This document shows positions 57,440 through 63,197 of a stretch of DNA of 64,000 bases, piece after piece. The first letter of the stretch is position 1. Each line of letters opens with the position of its first letter. The position numbers and the translations under genes were made by a program. The notes beneath the pieces were generated by a model that had not been told where the DNA came from, did no database searches, and saw only the letters and a list, made by a program, of their open reading frames with translations. This DNA is from Cylindrospermum sp. FACHB-282 (GTDB lineage Bacteria; Cyanobacteriota; Cyanobacteriia; Cyanobacteriales; Nostocaceae). The DNA is taken from the NCBI RefSeq assembly GCF_014697195.1, contig NZ_JACJRJ010000019.1, forward strand, positions 1 through 64,000, given 5' to 3'.

Positions 57440-57757
57440 ATGACTCAGCTAACACCAAAGCCACCAACTCGTAGAGGACGAATTTTCCCAGAACGCACTT
57501 TATCACCAGAGGAACTAGCTAGACGCAAAGCTGAAAATGAAGCACAATATCAACGTTATCGGGCAATTTTTGAGCGTGTACGTCCTGAGTTGATTCAAGA
57601 ACATTATGGTTGGTATATTGCTATTGAGCTAAATAGTGGTAATTATTTGATTGATGAGGATAAAGAAGTTGCACATAAAAAAGCCCATGAGAAATATCCA
57701 AATAGTGATCACTGTGTTTTTTGCTTGAACGAAACTGGAGCAACTGGCAGAATATAA
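57440..57757 (+). CDS. Hypothetical protein, tandem duplicate A
   Basis: The 105-residue soluble protein is a paralogue of the next gene (about two-thirds identical, both ending NETGATGRI). Shared features are a basic start (TPKxPTRRGRIFPE), a charged coiled region LSPEELA(R/K), RAIFERV, HYGWYIA(I/V)E and an IDxDxEVA(x)xKA(x)EK(H/Y)PN segment. I know no named domain. In copy B the partner is a retropepsin-like protease gene that overlaps it by 4 nt; copy A is followed instead by ttatttt-containing sequence that looks like a shortened relic of that gene start. Confidence 0.75.
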   Translation: MTQLTPKPPTRRGRIFPERTLSPEELARRKAENEAQYQRYRAIFERVRPELIQEHYGWYIAIELNSGNYLIDEDKEVAHKKAHEKYPNSDHCVFCLNETGATGRI

Positions 57758-57803
57758 AAGATTATTTTAAGTTAAACTAATAGTTACAGTTAGGTAAATA
57801 GTT

Positions 57804-58121
57804 ATGACTCAATCAACACCAAAGTCACCTACACGTAGAGGTCGAATTTTCCCCGAATTGACTTTATCACCGGAAGAACTAGCTAAACGCGAAGCTGAAA
57901 GAGAAGTTTTTCATAAACGTTGTCGGGCAATTTTTGAGCGTGTCCTTCCTGAATATATCGAGAACCACTATGGCTGGTATATTGCAGTGGAGCCAGATAG
58001 CGGTGATTACTTTATTGATAAAGACATTGAAGTAGCTAGTCAGAAAGCACGAGAAAAACACCCAAATGCTGTACATTGTGCATTTCGCCTAAATGAAACT
58101 GGAGCCACTGGCAGAATATGA
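57804..58121 (+). CDS. Hypothetical protein, tandem duplicate B
   Basis: The 105-residue paralogue of the preceding gene begins 46 nt after it. It has the same length and the same conserved core (RAIFERV, NHYGWYIAVE, NETGATGRI). Its last codons overlap the start of the retropepsin-like gene by ATGA (58118-58121), so translation is coupled and the two proteins likely work together. The abundance of charged residues and the lack of signal or membrane segments suggest a cytoplasmic partner or substrate of the protease. The function is unknown. Confidence 0.75.
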   Translation: MTQSTPKSPTRRGRIFPELTLSPEELAKREAEREVFHKRCRAIFERVLPEYIENHYGWYIAVEPDSGDYFIDKDIEVASQKAREKHPNAVHCAFRLNETGATGRI

Positions 58122-58480
58122 TACAGGGTTATTTTGGTGATGAGGGGCAACTATTTTTTGAAATTGAATTGATTACTAATGATAGATTAAATTTACCTGT
58201 GGAGATAATGTTAGATACTGGCTTTACAGGATTTATGGCTATAAACAAACAAGATTTAGATGCTCTAGACTGGCAATTTGTTCGTGAGCAAGAACTGATT
58301 ACAGCACAGGGAGAAAAAATATTTGATTTGTATTTAGGTAAGGTGATATTGGATGGAGAAGAGTATGAAATTCCAGTATTTGCAGGGAATAAAATCACAG
58401 AGATTTTATTAGGTTCGGAATGGTTGAGGTTTCTGCCTTTAGTGGTGAATTTTCAAGCGGGTATTTTAACTTTGGGATGA
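58118..58480 (+). CDS. Retropepsin-like (clan AA) aspartic protease
   Basis: The 120-residue single-domain protein has the aspartic protease signature LDTGFTG (Asp33-Thr-Gly35), the flap-like region near 58-80 (TAQGEKIFDLYLG) and the hydrophobic hhG motif EILLGSEWL near 95-103. Single-domain proteins must dimerise to make an active site with one Asp from each chain. There are no signal or membrane segments. It overlaps the duplicate B gene by 4 nt, so the two are translated together. Proteolytic activity is inferred from the motif. Confidence 0.87.
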   Translation: MIQGYFGDEGQLFFEIELITNDRLNLPVEIMLDTGFTGFMAINKQDLDALDWQFVREQELITAQGEKIFDLYLGKVILDGEEYEIPVFAGNKITEILLGSEWLRFLPLVVNFQAGILTLG

Positions 58481-58545
58481 AACGAACCGCAAAGGGCGCA
58501 AAGAGCGCTAAGGTAAGAAAGAAAAGAAGAGAAAATTCGTTATTT

Positions 58546-60036
58546 TTAGTTTATTGGTAGGTCGCGCAGGTAGTAAAATTTATCGTTTTTCCCATCACTT
58601 AATCTTTCACGTCCTAAGTAGCCGGTTAGGGGTGATGATAGTTCTATCAGTAAATCATAAGCTATTTCATCTGTTAGTTTGGGGTTATGAGTCACGTTGT
58701 AATGAACACGAATTTCTGTAACTGTAACCTGTTGATGTATAGCTGACGAAATTTCACTCTGTTGCTTAGAGAGTTCTTTAACTGTTTTGATAATGTTTGA
58801 ACGCAATTTAATACCTTGCCAGAGGTTATCAATATAGCGATTTATTTTATCATCGGCTGCTTCACCAAAAGGTTCGTTTTCTAAGCATGGTTTTAAGTTT
58901 AATAAATCTATTGAACCTGGGTGTTTTGCTTTTAATTCAACTAATTTTTGTAAGGTTTCAGGACGAATAACGTTCATTTGATTTCCACTCGCAGTTGATT
59001 CAGCAGGTTTTGTTAATTCACCAGCAGCCATAATGATTTTGATACAACTATTATATTGCTGTTGTAAATGCTTGTATCCCAGTTTTACAAGTTGTGCCGC
59101 TGTACCATCAGGAACTTTTTCTGTTTTAGTAGCTTTACATTCTCCAACGATTCGATAAGGATACTCACAATAAAAATCTAACCCACCAGCACCACCTAGT
59201 TTATCAGGATCTAGGTTAGCTTGAGAATTCGTATTAGAACAAGAAAAGCCTAGTGTGACAAAGCTTTTACGAACGAGTTTTTCAAACTCGTTACCATCAC
59301 TAGAATTACCAACTTTAGCAATTTTTCTAACCCAAGCTAAATCTGAATCTAGTTTATTTGCACTTTGCTCACTACCCCAACCCAAAAAGACTTTAATATC
59401 ATTTTCTAATTGCTGTGCTGCTGGGTTGGTGTAGGATATTTGCGATAAAGTACTCTGCAATTCTTCTAATTCACGATTTTGAGGAGGTTCTAGATTTTCT
59501 AATTGGCGTTTGCGTTGGGTAAATATTTGCTCACTTAATACAGGTTTAGCTTCAGAAGAAGCAATATTAGATAAACCCACAAATTTACCTAATTTATCTT
59601 GAATATTTGCATTAACTGGAACTTTACAGAACTGAGACAAATGATAAACGCGCAAGTAAGCGAGAAAAATATTTTGTTGTTTCTGTATTATTGCTTCAAA
59701 TGCTTCTGGTGCCCATATTGTCAATTGAGACAAAATATCTAACGGTTTAGATTTATCTAGAATTTGGCAAAGTTCACATTTAGCCCAACCTTTAATTGAA
59801 ACTATCTCAGAATTAACTTGTTTGATAGCAGTTTGAGCATTTGGTAAAAAATTTGGGCGGTAGTATTTTTCAATTGAAAGCTGATTTGCTGAAACATCAA
59901 CAGGATAAAGTGCAAATCTCTGTCCTGGACGAAGAAACATTCTGGGTAAAGCTGCAACTGTTCGTCCCTGTATTAAGGCTTCAATATCAGGGACGGGTAG
60001 ACACAGTGCTGTTGGAAGTGAAAACTGCTGAGTCAT
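58546..60036 (-). CDS. PD-(D/E)xK nuclease of a three-gene cassette
   Basis: The 496-residue protein has three parts. The N-terminal ~130 residues (DIEALIQGRT, GQRFALYPVD, GWAKCELCQ) might be a PUA/ASCH-like domain (weak inference). A helical linker follows. A PD-(D/E)xK nuclease core (about 245-345) has Glu250 (GNEFEKL), Asp287 (GGLDFYCEY) and Glu299-x-Lys301 (GECKATK). The C-terminal ~100 residues are unassigned. It begins 2 nt after the ATPase stop, so the cassette is one transcript. Key residues are all present, so nuclease activity is likely. The target is unknown. Confidence 0.72.
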   Translation of the reverse strand: MTQQFSLPTALCLPVPDIEALIQGRTVAALPRMFLRPGQRFALYPVDVSANQLSIEKYYRPNFLPNAQTAIKQVNSEIVSIKGWAKCELCQILDKSKPLDILSQLTIWAPEAFEAIIQKQQNIFLAYLRVYHLSQFCKVPVNANIQDKLGKFVGLSNIASSEAKPVLSEQIFTQRKRQLENLEPPQNRELEELQSTLSQISYTNPAAQQLENDIKVFLGWGSEQSANKLDSDLAWVRKIAKVGNSSDGNEFEKLVRKSFVTLGFSCSNTNSQANLDPDKLGGAGGLDFYCEYPYRIVGECKATKTEKVPDGTAAQLVKLGYKHLQQQYNSCIKIIMAAGELTKPAESTASGNQMNVIRPETLQKLVELKAKHPGSIDLLNLKPCLENEPFGEAADDKINRYIDNLWQGIKLRSNIIKTVKELSKQQSEISSAIHQQVTVTEIRVHYNVTHNPKLTDEIAYDLLIELSSPLTGYLGRERLSDGKNDKFYYLRDLPIN

Positions 60037-60038
60037 TT

Positions 60039-61928
60039 CTATTTAGTTATGGGTTCACTCATTTGAATATTTTCAGCATTTGCAGCACTTTGAGGAATAC
60101 TAACAGGTAATCCATCAGGAGTTAATTTAGTCGGTTCTTGACCAGAAGGATCACTTAAAATTTCTCGAATTAGAGGATTGTTGATAGCGATTTGTTTCTG
60201 TTTTATAAATTCAAAAATCTGCTCCTCTGTCAATTCATAACTCTTACGATTGTCCCAAACATACAAGATAGCTAAAAGAGGTTTAATATCTTGGCTTTGC
60301 AACCCTACCCATTCTCCACCCTTTTGTTTTAACAGTATTCTCAAGTTTTCTCTAGCTAATTTAGCAGTAGTAGAAATTTCCTTTGAACGCACCAAGCAAC
60401 CGCGAGTTAAATCATATTTATGATAATCAATTAATCTACTCAACGCTGCTGCGATACTACTACCATTTGGTTGCTGTATGACATCTACCCCAATTTTTAC
60501 TTGTTGTTTATTCCCAATAATTTTAAAATCAATATGTTGTTGATTAGGTACTTCTTCAATTTTTTCAATTGTCACACCTTCTATAGTTTCACCTATTAAC
60601 CTATCAAAAGAAAATTTAAGTGCCTTGGCAATTATTACTTCATCATCTAGCAGTAAATTGATAGAAGCTCGTAGGTGTACTAATTCACTCAGAAAATACG
60701 GTTTAACTAGATGGGGATGGATGTCTTTTGGTTTGGGTGGATCATCTTTCTTTGGTAGGGTTTTTCCATTAAAATTATCCGCGCACCATTTTAAAACTGC
60801 TCTCACGGTCGGTCTTTGTTTCCCAAGTTCTCGGAGTTCATTTTCATCAAATGGATAAAGAGGATGAGGAGGTGTCTGTTGATGTTCTTTATAAAACTCT
60901 TGCAACCATTGACTAACTATGGCAATAACATCATCAGGATTTAAAAATTTCAGTCGGATTGGTAGTCTATCAACTTGATTGCTGACTAATCTATCCATAA
61001 CAGCTTCAGCTTGTGGTAAAAGCCTGATTTGATCTTCCCAAGTTTCACGGTACATTGTCAGCAGAAAAACACCTTTCTTCAGACTGTTATACATATCCTT
61101 AACCAAGTTTGCAATAACCTGGGCTGTTGTAAAACCTGAGCCTGAAACTTCCGAATTATCTAATTCATCAAAGCAAATTACTGGTATTTTGTAATTGCTA
61201 GTTATATCGAGAATTTGGCGAACAGTATTTAATGCCTCAACCTCTCTATCTTCAGTTTTAGGATTTGGTAAACCCATTGCTTCAGCCTGAGCCTGTGTTA
61301 GTTCCAAGCCCGATAGCCAAAAATTTGCAAAATTCGCATGGGCTGGAGAAAGTGTCCACAAAATCGCTTTGACTATGTAAGGATTAGTGATTTCAGGCTT
61401 GATTTGCTGAATAAGTTCTGTCAAGTTATCAAGAAATTTAGTTGAATATTGATTTAACCAATTTGGATATTGATTAATATACTGTTGTGGTGTAAATTTC
61501 CATGATTTTGCTTCGTTGATTAAAGCTGCTGCAATTTCTTGCCACTGCATTACTTTCTGACTTCCAAAAGCTCTGAGACTAGAGGCAACACTTTGCAGAA
61601 ACTGAGACTTAATGCAATTCAAGTTATCGTATTTACTCACATAGATAAATAAGCTGCTATTGTCAGCCTGTAGACGGTGGCGAATACGACTAATAATATG
61701 GCTTTTACCTGCGCCTTTTGGAGATGCAATTGTGATACCTACAATTTCACGTTTTCCCTTACTAATTTTTTCAATTGCTTCAAAAACTGCATCAGAAGCA
61801 TGAGCATTAATTGAAGGAACATCAGGAAAGCTTTTACCCCATACTTGTTGGGATCTGACAACGATATGTCCTGCAAATGGGTTGTGATTTCTAATCAGTT
61901 CGTCAATGGTAGATCCGTTAGTACTCAT
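60039..61928 (-). CDS. P-loop ATPase of a three-gene cassette
   Basis: The 629-residue ATPase has Walker A SPKGAGKS (69-76) and Walker B VICFDELDN (250-258; Asp254-Glu255), followed by a sensor-1-like LLTMYRETW and arginine-rich segments, resembling AAA+/Orc-like or STAND-type ATPases. The C-terminal ~250 residues contain a region (about 470-555; DFKIIGNKQQVKIGVDV, then a helix and a LVRS strand) with a PD-(D/E)xK-like layout lacking a clear E-x-K, as in DUF234-type C-terminal domains. It lies between the wHTH gene (45 nt) and the nuclease gene (2 nt), all minus strand. Confidence 0.78.
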   Translation of the reverse strand: MSTNGSTIDELIRNHNPFAGHIVVRSQQVWGKSFPDVPSINAHASDAVFEAIEKISKGKREIVGITIASPKGAGKSHIISRIRHRLQADNSSLFIYVSKYDNLNCIKSQFLQSVASSLRAFGSQKVMQWQEIAAALINEAKSWKFTPQQYINQYPNWLNQYSTKFLDNLTELIQQIKPEITNPYIVKAILWTLSPAHANFANFWLSGLELTQAQAEAMGLPNPKTEDREVEALNTVRQILDITSNYKIPVICFDELDNSEVSGSGFTTAQVIANLVKDMYNSLKKGVFLLTMYRETWEDQIRLLPQAEAVMDRLVSNQVDRLPIRLKFLNPDDVIAIVSQWLQEFYKEHQQTPPHPLYPFDENELRELGKQRPTVRAVLKWCADNFNGKTLPKKDDPPKPKDIHPHLVKPYFLSELVHLRASINLLLDDEVIIAKALKFSFDRLIGETIEGVTIEKIEEVPNQQHIDFKIIGNKQQVKIGVDVIQQPNGSSIAAALSRLIDYHKYDLTRGCLVRSKEISTTAKLARENLRILLKQKGGEWVGLQSQDIKPLLAILYVWDNRKSYELTEEQIFEFIKQKQIAINNPLIREILSDPSGQEPTKLTPDGLPVSIPQSAANAENIQMSEPITK

Positions 61929-61973
61929 AGTATTGTGAAGTTAAGGTGTGAGAAGTTGAAACAAGATTTAAGG

Positions 61974-62633
61974 TTATAAACGTATGGCGTAGCAGCGTAG
62001 TCCATCAAGTTTTGTACTAATAGAATCTTCTACTTTGTCGCTGGCATTATCTTCTATAGTTCCCCCTTGAAGTTGGAAAATATCGTCAGCTTGCATTTCT
62101 AGCAGAAAATCATTAAATTCAGTACGACTTATGCGATCGCCTATTTCTCTCCTAATGCGGTAAATTGGCACTAGATGATTAAAGTTGTATTCATAGTTCA
62201 ACTTGTCGTAGACTTCTAGCGCTACAGACTTAAACTCGTCGTAAGAAGCAATGCTTGCACTCTTCACCCCATCCCCAGACGCAACCACCGCTACATCAAT
62301 CTGACTAATCCACTTCAGCAACGCATTCGCAACCCAAGTACCGACAATAGTTCCCTCAAACTTAAACTCGCTATGTCGCAAACCCGCACCCAACACCTCT
62401 AAACCCTTGGGAGATGTGAGAGAGTATCCTTTTTTGGAAATTGCGATCGCACCCTGCTTTTCTAACTCCGCAAATATCTCCTGAAAATCTGCAACCTTCT
62501 TACCCTTAGATATAATTCGCTTAGTGAGTTGACCTTTAGCTACTTCCTTCTCTCTCCCTCCCAAATCCCATAAAGCCAGCAACAAACGAGTTGTAGCTGC
62601 ATTAGCCTGTAAAATATTTTGTTTAGTAACCAT
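61974..62633 (-). CDS. Winged-helix protein of a three-gene cassette
   Basis: The 219-residue first gene of the cassette. The N-terminal ~85 residues read as a winged helix (TRLLLALWDLG, FQEIFAELEKQGAI, YSLTSPKGLEVL). The C-terminal part (about 150-219) looks like a second winged helix (LVPIYRIRREIGDRISRTEF, FLLEMQADDIFQLQGG). Two small DNA-binding modules suggest target or regulator recognition. It begins 45 nt before the ATPase gene; no ribosomal or transport context. I do not know a named family for it. Confidence 0.65.
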   Translation of the reverse strand: MVTKQNILQANAATTRLLLALWDLGGREKEVAKGQLTKRIISKGKKVADFQEIFAELEKQGAIAISKKGYSLTSPKGLEVLGAGLRHSEFKFEGTIVGTWVANALLKWISQIDVAVVASGDGVKSASIASYDEFKSVALEVYDKLNYEYNFNHLVPIYRIRREIGDRISRTEFNDFLLEMQADDIFQLQGGTIEDNASDKVEDSISTKLDGLRCYAIRL

Positions 62634-63197
62634 ACTATGTGCCTTATTTGACGAATAATAATTATAATAGTTTTCTTTTTTCCCTTAGCCAGAGAAAAAA
62701 CTTTTGTTATTTTCTATATATTTCATAAAGAAATTCAGATATTTACTCAAAGGATAAATCCAGAGATTACACGTATTTTGTTTGTTTAAATTTTACAAAA
62801 ATTGCAACAATTAGAGGACTTTTCAATTACATACACCACCCCGTAAGCCTACGGTTTACACACAAGTCTCTCTCGATGCAATTTAGGGTTAAAACCTCAC
62901 CCTGGTTCTGCTATTCGCTTTACCTCTCCCTCTCCAACGCATAGAGAGGGATGTCCGTCAGGACTATTTGAGGTTAATCTTTTGTCATATTCCCCAGGAG
63001 ATAAGTAATCCAGCCTATATCAACAGCAGGATGGAAAACTTGAGAAATTGCTTCATCATGCCAAGAGAAACTCTTTATCAGTGCTGTTGTAAAACAGCGG
63101 CAAATGCTTATTCAATTGCAGAAAAAATAGCAGGAATTACCACCCTGTTTTTGCCACAGTACGCCTTTTAGCAAACCCAGTGTGAGGACAAAATCTG
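62634..63197. other. Divergent intergenic region upstream of the cassette
   Basis: About 560 nt without a supported gene. The first ~200 nt are very AT-rich and may carry the promoter of the three-gene cassette. A weak 67-codon frame at 62968-63171 was not accepted. The lipoprotein gene follows. Confidence 0.4.

Follow-up and report, generated by a model that had tools for sequence, protein, structure and literature searches.

A cyanobacterial cassette of a winged helix-turn-helix protein, an Orc/Cdc6-type ATPase, and a DUF1802-containing nuclease as a candidate anti-invader restriction system

Closest described systems and the cassette

McrBC, a type IV restriction system, consists of an AAA+ NTPase and a separate PD-(D/E)xK nuclease. 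The same layout is found in a three-gene cassette of Cylindrospermum sp. FACHB-282, which differs from McrBC in carrying a putative reader domain on the nuclease and in having an Orc/Cdc6-like ATPase. The cassette occupies positions 58546-62633 of the 64,000-nucleotide stretch analysed here (contig NZ_JACJRJ010000019.1, positions 1 to 64,000; hereafter the window) and is read as an anti-invader DNA restriction system, with a probability of about 0.72.

The cassette comprises a 219-residue winged helix-turn-helix (wHTH)-type protein, presumed to be the DNA-binding or targeting subunit (gene 1; open reading frame (ORF) at 61974-62633), a 629-residue Orc/Cdc6/TnsC-type AAA+ ATPase, assigned from its ORF and an AlphaFold2 (AF2) model (gene 2; 60039-61928), and a 496-residue nuclease in which Pfam and AF2 place a DUF1802/ASCH-like domain, a PD-(D/E)xK domain, and a winged helix (wH) (gene 3; 58546-60036). 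All three genes lie on the minus strand, with gaps of 45 nucleotides between genes 1 and 2 and 2 nucleotides between genes 2 and 3, and the ORFs, lengths, and spacing given in the initial annotation of this DNA were exactly confirmed. Order and strand are kept across loci, and the trio is thus a genuine unit and not a chance arrangement.

The nearest described relatives are operons predicted in one sentence by Rakesh, Aravind, and Krishnan in 2024, which combine Orc/Cdc6, a restriction endonuclease (REase) fused to ASCH, and a DndG-like triple-wHTH protein (PMC10853773). For related ATPases, the same paper describes an inactive REase that follows the AAA+ core and precedes a C-terminal wHTH. 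Matched by text description, the Orc/Cdc6-type ATPase, the REase fused to a predicted ASCH domain, and the wHTH protein are common to that class and the window; the ATPase is of the Orc/Cdc6-family AAA+ kind and the genes are coupled, all 29 of the fetched cassette loci retaining the same order and strand. As the domain assignments predate the comparison with that paper, the agreement is independent, and the cassette most likely belongs to the predicted class. The settings differ in that the published neighbourhoods were called mobile, whereas the searches made here gave no copy from a plasmid, phage, or virus, and one site is syntenic in part of a family. The domains listed for HerA/FtsK capture systems with Orc/Cdc6 ATPases (PMC10853773, PMC12839542) are present in a second cassette of the same genome, described below, whereas the window cassette shows no HerA/FtsK translocase.

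A further comparison is offered by modification-dependent enzymes of the PUA superfamily, among them VcaM4I with the architecture EVE-HNH (PMC7897488) and HhiV4I with PUA-wH-HNH (PMC11037411), alongside EVE-PD(D/E)XK proteins, again a PUA-superfamily domain with a nuclease (PMC7641849); that ASCH domains read modified bases is a prediction (PMC11037411). Such enzymes join a PUA-like domain to a nuclease as here, with HhiV4I also having a winged helix, and differ in that the present nuclease has AAA+ ATPase and wHTH partners and the order PUA-like, PD-(D/E)xK, wH.

The trio had initially been described as fitting no known system. This holds for PADLOC, whose protein models matched none of the three proteins (0 families at E-values up to 1), and does not hold for the literature, where the class had already been predicted (PMC10853773). 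NCBIfam matches were below the curated cut-offs (Sll1717 ATPase, 37.7 against 75; DS41_1 antiphage, 22.7 against 370), and PDB sequence searches with single proteins and with profiles returned chance-like rows only. The literature searched contained nothing on Sll1717.

Domain organization of the three proteins

The AF2 model of the ATPase (predicted local distance difference test (pLDDT) 88.0; predicted template modelling score (pTM) 0.79) was compared with known structures. Residues ~1-388 gave Z 14.7 to Orc2 (1w5t; root mean square deviation (rmsd) 3.8, 242 aligned), 14.4 to Cdc6 (1fnn; rmsd 3.9, 239 aligned), and, tied with Orc/Cdc6, 14.5 to TnsC (7mcs; rmsd 4.7, 258 aligned); MuB was likewise among the best matches, and RdrA (8hr8) reached Z 12.8. 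On the model, residues 1-388 are an AAA+ domain of the Orc/Cdc6/TnsC/MuB kind. The Walker A lysine, Lys75, is kept in all 78 ATPases compared, and the Walker B residues Asp254 and Glu255 in 77 and 74, respectively, which bears out the P-loop ATPase first proposed but moves its Walker A lysine from residue 76 to 75. YTH rows obtained with the ATPase profile in the PDB (E 0.021) lay inside the AAA+ region and were treated as chance.

C-terminal to this domain, residues ~409-543 (60300-60704, minus strand) show the strand and helix order of a restriction-endonuclease core in the AF2 secondary structure, and residues ~545-591 are helical. The (D/E)xK lysine is absent, with residue 484, taken as its equivalent, being lysine in 0 of 78 sequences and residue 482 being aspartate in 21 of 78. 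Profile comparison (hhalign) of the ATPase with the nuclease found no link. Judged from the modelled secondary structure, this stretch is a putative REase and could be a nuclease domain that has no activity.

The TnsC and MuB matches are what would be expected of a transposition-related module, a Tn7-like fragment or relative in which a TnsC/MuB-like ATPase works with a TnsA-like nuclease, and a TnpB-like ORF (by eye, cluster 17) lies near the cassette in 5 of the 29 loci. No DDE transposase, however, was recognised by eye among the neighbour clusters shared by 3 or more of the 29 loci, the nuclease best matches FokI-type domains, and the empty site described below holds 137 bp of unrelated sequence, leaving this explanation very improbable. 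The RdrA match bears on a different proposal, namely an abortive-infection system in which the ATPase senses infection and frees a nuclease that destroys the host genome without any sensing of modification. The ATPase does resemble this immune NTPase among others, and related Orc/Cdc6 genes have NACHT, TIR, and KAP partners (PMC10853773), but the two putative DNA-reading domains on the nuclease fit target discrimination better and such a system seems rather unlikely.

The AF2 model of the nuclease (pLDDT 88.3, pTM 0.60; 82 sequences) has three parts, of which the first and last, DUF1802 and the C-terminal winged helix, had been missed in the initial annotation. Pfam places DUF1802 at residues 10-178 (E 6e-38; 59503-60009, minus strand). 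Foldseek rows 1-13 for model residues 5-165 are ASCH/TRIP4 proteins (E 3.3e-3 to 3e-2), and VIA gave Z 9.8 to CXorf40A (6kir; 141 aligned, rmsd 3.6), which we take to be ASCH-type, 9.0 to 2dp9, and 8.4 to ZmASCH. DUF1802 is accordingly predicted, from the modelled structure, to have an ASCH/PUA-like fold.

The central part, residues ~227-408 (58813-59358, minus strand), is a PD-(D/E)xK catalytic domain by VIA and conservation, with Z 14.1 to FokI (2fok; 150 aligned, rmsd 3.3), 13.8 to the N.BspD6I cleavage domain, and 10.5 to AF1548; the Pfam match to Mrr_cat (E 4e-4, 20.9 bits) fell just under the cut-off of 21. The set Glu252-Asp287-Glu299-x-Lys301 is complete in 80 of 82 nucleases, the exceptions being locus L108 and the second copy in L113. 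Singly, Glu252, Glu299, and Lys301 are each kept in 81 and Asp287 in 80, in agreement with three of the residues first assigned; the fourth, Glu250, had been taken as the first catalytic acidic residue, but it is present in 21 of the 82 and that place belongs to Glu252.

The C-terminal winged helix, residues ~408-496 (58549-58815, minus strand), contains the ELSSPLTGYLGR motif and was assigned by VIA (Z 10.4 to 7jgr_G of an ORC-Cdc6 complex; 81 aligned, rmsd 2.0) and by conservation, with Glu465, Ser468, Leu470, Gly472, and Gly475 invariant in all 82 nucleases. The predicted combination of ASCH/PUA, PD-(D/E)xK, and winged-helix domains, comparable to modification-dependent nucleases in which a PUA-superfamily sensor is joined to a nuclease domain (PMC7897488), argues for an anti-invader function.

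Several nuclease matches had a gap at the N terminus; a frameshift was rejected as its cause, as the two pieces in genome G072 share one frame. The tandem second nuclease copy in L113 (10570-12012) has all four catalytic positions substituted and is perhaps an inactive partner. Counting free and fused forms together, 50 of 194 genomes encode DUF1802, and the free-standing protein is homologous to the fused domain (hhalign probability 98.9, E 3e-17). The free-standing proteins are ~195 residues long (L191-L200 and G000:C32:57120-57641), most of them with LLRKGG and YPT(Y/F)EHQ motifs, and in 3 of 10 loci (L193, L197, and L200) the following gene reads, by eye, like an aldo/keto reductase. A literature search on DUF1802 found nothing related, judged by title.

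In the wHTH protein, an alignment (A1) of 30 cassette copies has 17 invariant columns. Winged-helix Pfam matches in its members are weak (DUF6293_C in 7 of 30 and SelB-wing_2 in 5 of 30; best E 0.0035), so the two winged-helix regions initially described in this protein receive weak profile support. Profile comparison with the nuclease found no link.

Relatives of the wHTH protein also occur in other contexts. In L082 (4903-5919), L087 (182-1180), L090 (4852-5832), and L095 (280-1278), a lysine-rich protein of 326-338 residues, histone H1-like by eye, has a C-terminal gene-1-type wHTH domain and is encoded upstream of the cassette; the L082 copy had no Pfam match. Free-standing wHTH proteins of 101-102 residues in L065 (9290-9595) and L066 (9186-9494) are 61-63% identical to gene 1, and each gene adjoins conserved genes for 267- and 433-residue proteins. 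L064 (9157-13376) encodes a full-length gene-1 relative (45% identity), 140 nucleotides upstream of a 1097-residue PLDc-SNF2 helicase protein and without an ATPase relative.

Distribution, site, and exchange of the cassette

A first sample of 194 genomes drawn from the cyanobacterial phylum gave matches to the ATPase in 39, to the wHTH protein in 36, and to the nuclease in 34. The full trio, in the order wHTH-ATPase-nuclease on one strand, is present in 30 of the 34 nuclease-positive genomes (the window and the 29 fetched loci); in the remaining ones it is cut by contig ends (G151 and G153) or the nuclease match is partial (G131 and G133). The recurrent co-occurrence and conserved gene order put forward in the initial annotation as a check on the trio were thus observed, and this joint but patchy occurrence supports the anti-invader reading. 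Three of the 29 fetched loci (L039, L054, and L059) have an ATPase divided between two ORFs. Partnerless relatives were found for the ATPase (L061-L063) and the wHTH protein (L064-L066), and the two occur together without a nuclease in L069.

A search of a second collection with the nuclease profile yielded 239 relatives, and for the best 80 of these all titles are cyanobacterial (Nostoc, Calothrix, Anabaena, and others). Exactly one trio on one strand was present in 61 of the 80 loci, 59 of them without an intervening called ORF; 11 had a trio with extra copies or fragments, 3 had the ATPase in pieces, and 5 lacked the upstream genes, 4 of these lying at contig starts. Two full trios stand in tandem in L087, L095, and L128, whereas L084 has three ATPase-nuclease pairs and L088 two, with no wHTH gene called for the middle pair of L084 or for the first pair of L088. 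The tandem copies are mostly 30-60% identical, with one L084 pair at 84-88%.

At the syntenic site of genome G099 the block is absent. By DNA homology to L186, the missing block corresponds to 58478-63014 of the window; the flanking genes are present, homology ends at ~58478 and resumes at ~63014, and the flanks are separated by 137 bp of unrelated sequence. Of five genomes that lack the full cassette and whose pgi site was inspected, G099 has a clean empty site; G024 and G125 retain pgi and the mdh-like flank without a cassette, and for G189 and G172 the retrieved stretch did not contain a recognisable far flank.

Beside the nuclease gene, the window (57440-58480) encodes two 105-residue ORFs, 71% identical to each other, and a 120-residue retropepsin-like ORF (clan AA; NCBIfam E 2.5e-10, under the cut-off). 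Relatives of these ORFs recur next to the nuclease in several loci and persist at the empty site.

Within the window's family, mean pairwise protein identity is 0.86 for Pgi, 0.58 for the wHTH protein, 0.52 for the nuclease, and 0.45 for the ATPase. Rank correlation of the last three with the Pgi values falls from 0.61 for the wHTH protein (136 pairs) to 0.44 for the nuclease (136) and 0.26 for the ATPase (120). Between L036 and L043, which belong to one genus, aligned DNA is 88% identical over the 5 kb before the cassette, 91% over the 5 kb after it, and 87% in the wHTH gene, whereas the alignable fraction drops to 5% for the ATPase gene and 40% for the nuclease gene, with identity back at 89% over the final 110 bp of the latter. 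L036 and L050 have matching wHTH (83%) and nuclease (80%) genes, but their ATPase genes align over 3% only. Pairwise DNA comparison of 11 loci sorts the ATPase genes into classes, with L037, L043, L045, L046, and L050 mutually aligned over 0.71-1.00, L055 with L060 over 1.00, L035 with L036 over 1.00, and L032 with the window over 0.98; coverage between classes is 0-0.39, with L035 against the window intermediate at 0.64. Among close relatives, ATPase and nuclease alleles have therefore been replaced in place at the pgi site. More distant pairs, for example those with L060, lose the wHTH match too, so the constancy of this gene holds for close relatives only. Clean absence of the block, in-place allele exchange, which is frequent among immunity genes, and mostly divergent tandem copies all favour a function against invaders.

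The genome of the window also encodes a paralogous cassette (L071, G000:C33, 5574-11141) of a wHTH-like protein (284 residues), an Orc-like ATPase (668 residues), and an 870-residue effector with 3'-5' exonuclease, PD-(D/E)xK, and FtsK domains. By hhalign, its first two genes are related to those of the window cassette (gene 1, probability 98.7, E 2e-16; gene 2, probability 99.9), and its effector is unrelated to the window nuclease by profile comparison. The second ATPase is found in 24 of 194 genomes (matches of at least 300 bits). Eighteen loci with it comprise 11 in the order wHTH-like, ATPase, effector, 3 with two ATPases and no effector, 3 with the first two genes only, and 1 with the ATPase alone. 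ATPase relatives of 802-848 residues in L231 (5210-7618) and L232 (4960-7506) have an extra N-terminal part like a DnaQ-type exonuclease, by eye.

The domains of the G000:C33 effector form a repair-like set, and together with the Orc/Cdc6-type fold, purifying selection, and a chromosomal location that is stable in some members of the family they could be accommodated by a host complex for DNA repair, recombination, or chromosome maintenance, in which an Orc-like AAA+ directs a structure-specific nuclease. Such a role is unlikely, given that the nuclease is confined to 34 of 194 genomes, the block is absent in G099, deeply divergent alleles have been exchanged in place, the ATPase is split in 3 of 29 loci, and the housekeeping protein Pgi is far more conserved. 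For the anti-invader reading, in contrast, a paralogous wHTH and ATPase pair joined to an unrelated effector is supporting evidence, as is the published prediction of the same trio (PMC10853773).

An anti-invader reading and its consequences

Several results weigh against this reading. At the level of fold, Foldseek places mitoribosomal and NSF proteins at the top for the ATPase and Orc from rank 6 onwards, and the ASCH matches of DUF1802 are modest, none of the Foldseek rows having an E-value of 0.001 or better. The hhalign comparison of DUF1802 with ASCH was empty (probability 0.1), a weak test given a poor ASCH alignment of 16 rows, several of them short wrong-frame fragments; as no profile-level link was found, the ASCH assignment rests on the predicted fold. 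At the level of the locus, the cassette adjoins pgi in 10 of 16 fetched loci of the window's family and in the window, as a vertically kept gene would. dN/dS (the ratio of nonsynonymous to synonymous substitution rates) stays under 1 throughout the genes and pairs compared (nuclease 0.20-0.43, 6 pairs; Pgi 0.07-0.10, 5 pairs), and since this is so in all six nuclease pairs, fast turnover and exchange are indicated and not overall positive selection. Mobility is likewise not supported, as neither the 72,556 plasmid records nor the 50,697 phage records contained a nuclease relative and none was confirmed in IMG/VR viral contigs. The literature searched contains no experimental test of cassette activity.

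Known defence genes nearby would also have counted in favour. The PADLOC neighbour set was drawn from 31 loci, chosen largely from beyond the window's family and without neighbours of the family's own loci; its 142 proteins comprised the nearest five genes of at least 110 residues within 5.5 kb, without proteins of more than 1,400 residues. It matched 49 families, compared with 148 for 97 proteins around ten free-standing DUF1802 genes, a rough comparison with 25 families listed per set. Matches were thus not above the control, and a defence-island neighbourhood was rejected as support. Of the anti-invader triad originally proposed, the part concerning defence neighbours falls away, whereas gene order, patchiness, the empty site, allele exchange, and the published prediction uphold the remainder.

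If the cassette restricts invading DNA, its Orc/Cdc6-type AAA+ would assemble on DNA in an ATP-dependent manner, guided by the wHTH protein of gene 1, and the DNA-assembled ATPase would recruit or license the nuclease. The ASCH/PUA-like N terminus and C-terminal winged helix of the nuclease could then inspect the DNA for a mark of foreign origin, most likely a base that is modified or one that lacks modification, and the FokI/Mrr-type PD-(D/E)xK domain would cut the inspected DNA. In this scheme DNA would be the target, modification would be sensed, the three proteins would form a complex, cleavage would be gated by ATP, and the cell would be protected from phages or plasmids. Modification dependence of the restriction is plausible.

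A more extended proposal, which we regard as tentative and rather doubtful, is that the cassette is a hypervariable immune locus in which a more constant wHTH targeting subunit is combined with an exchangeable ATPase and nuclease, the core wHTH and Orc-like ATPase pair having been linked in cyanobacteria with two or more nuclease effectors that are unrelated to one another. Were this true, the exchanged Orc-like ATPase would be the part that recognises the invader, and DUF1802, which is widespread in free-standing form as well, would add a new branch of base readers to the ASCH/PUA superfamily.

Collectively, these data place a class so far predicted in one sentence in named cyanobacteria (Nostoc, Calothrix, Anabaena, and others) and propose a fold and a role for DUF1802. 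The empty-site genome, the tandem copies, and the exchanged alleles provide ready-made experiments, and the two cassettes suggest that the wHTH and Orc-like ATPase pair can be reused as a platform for different nucleases.

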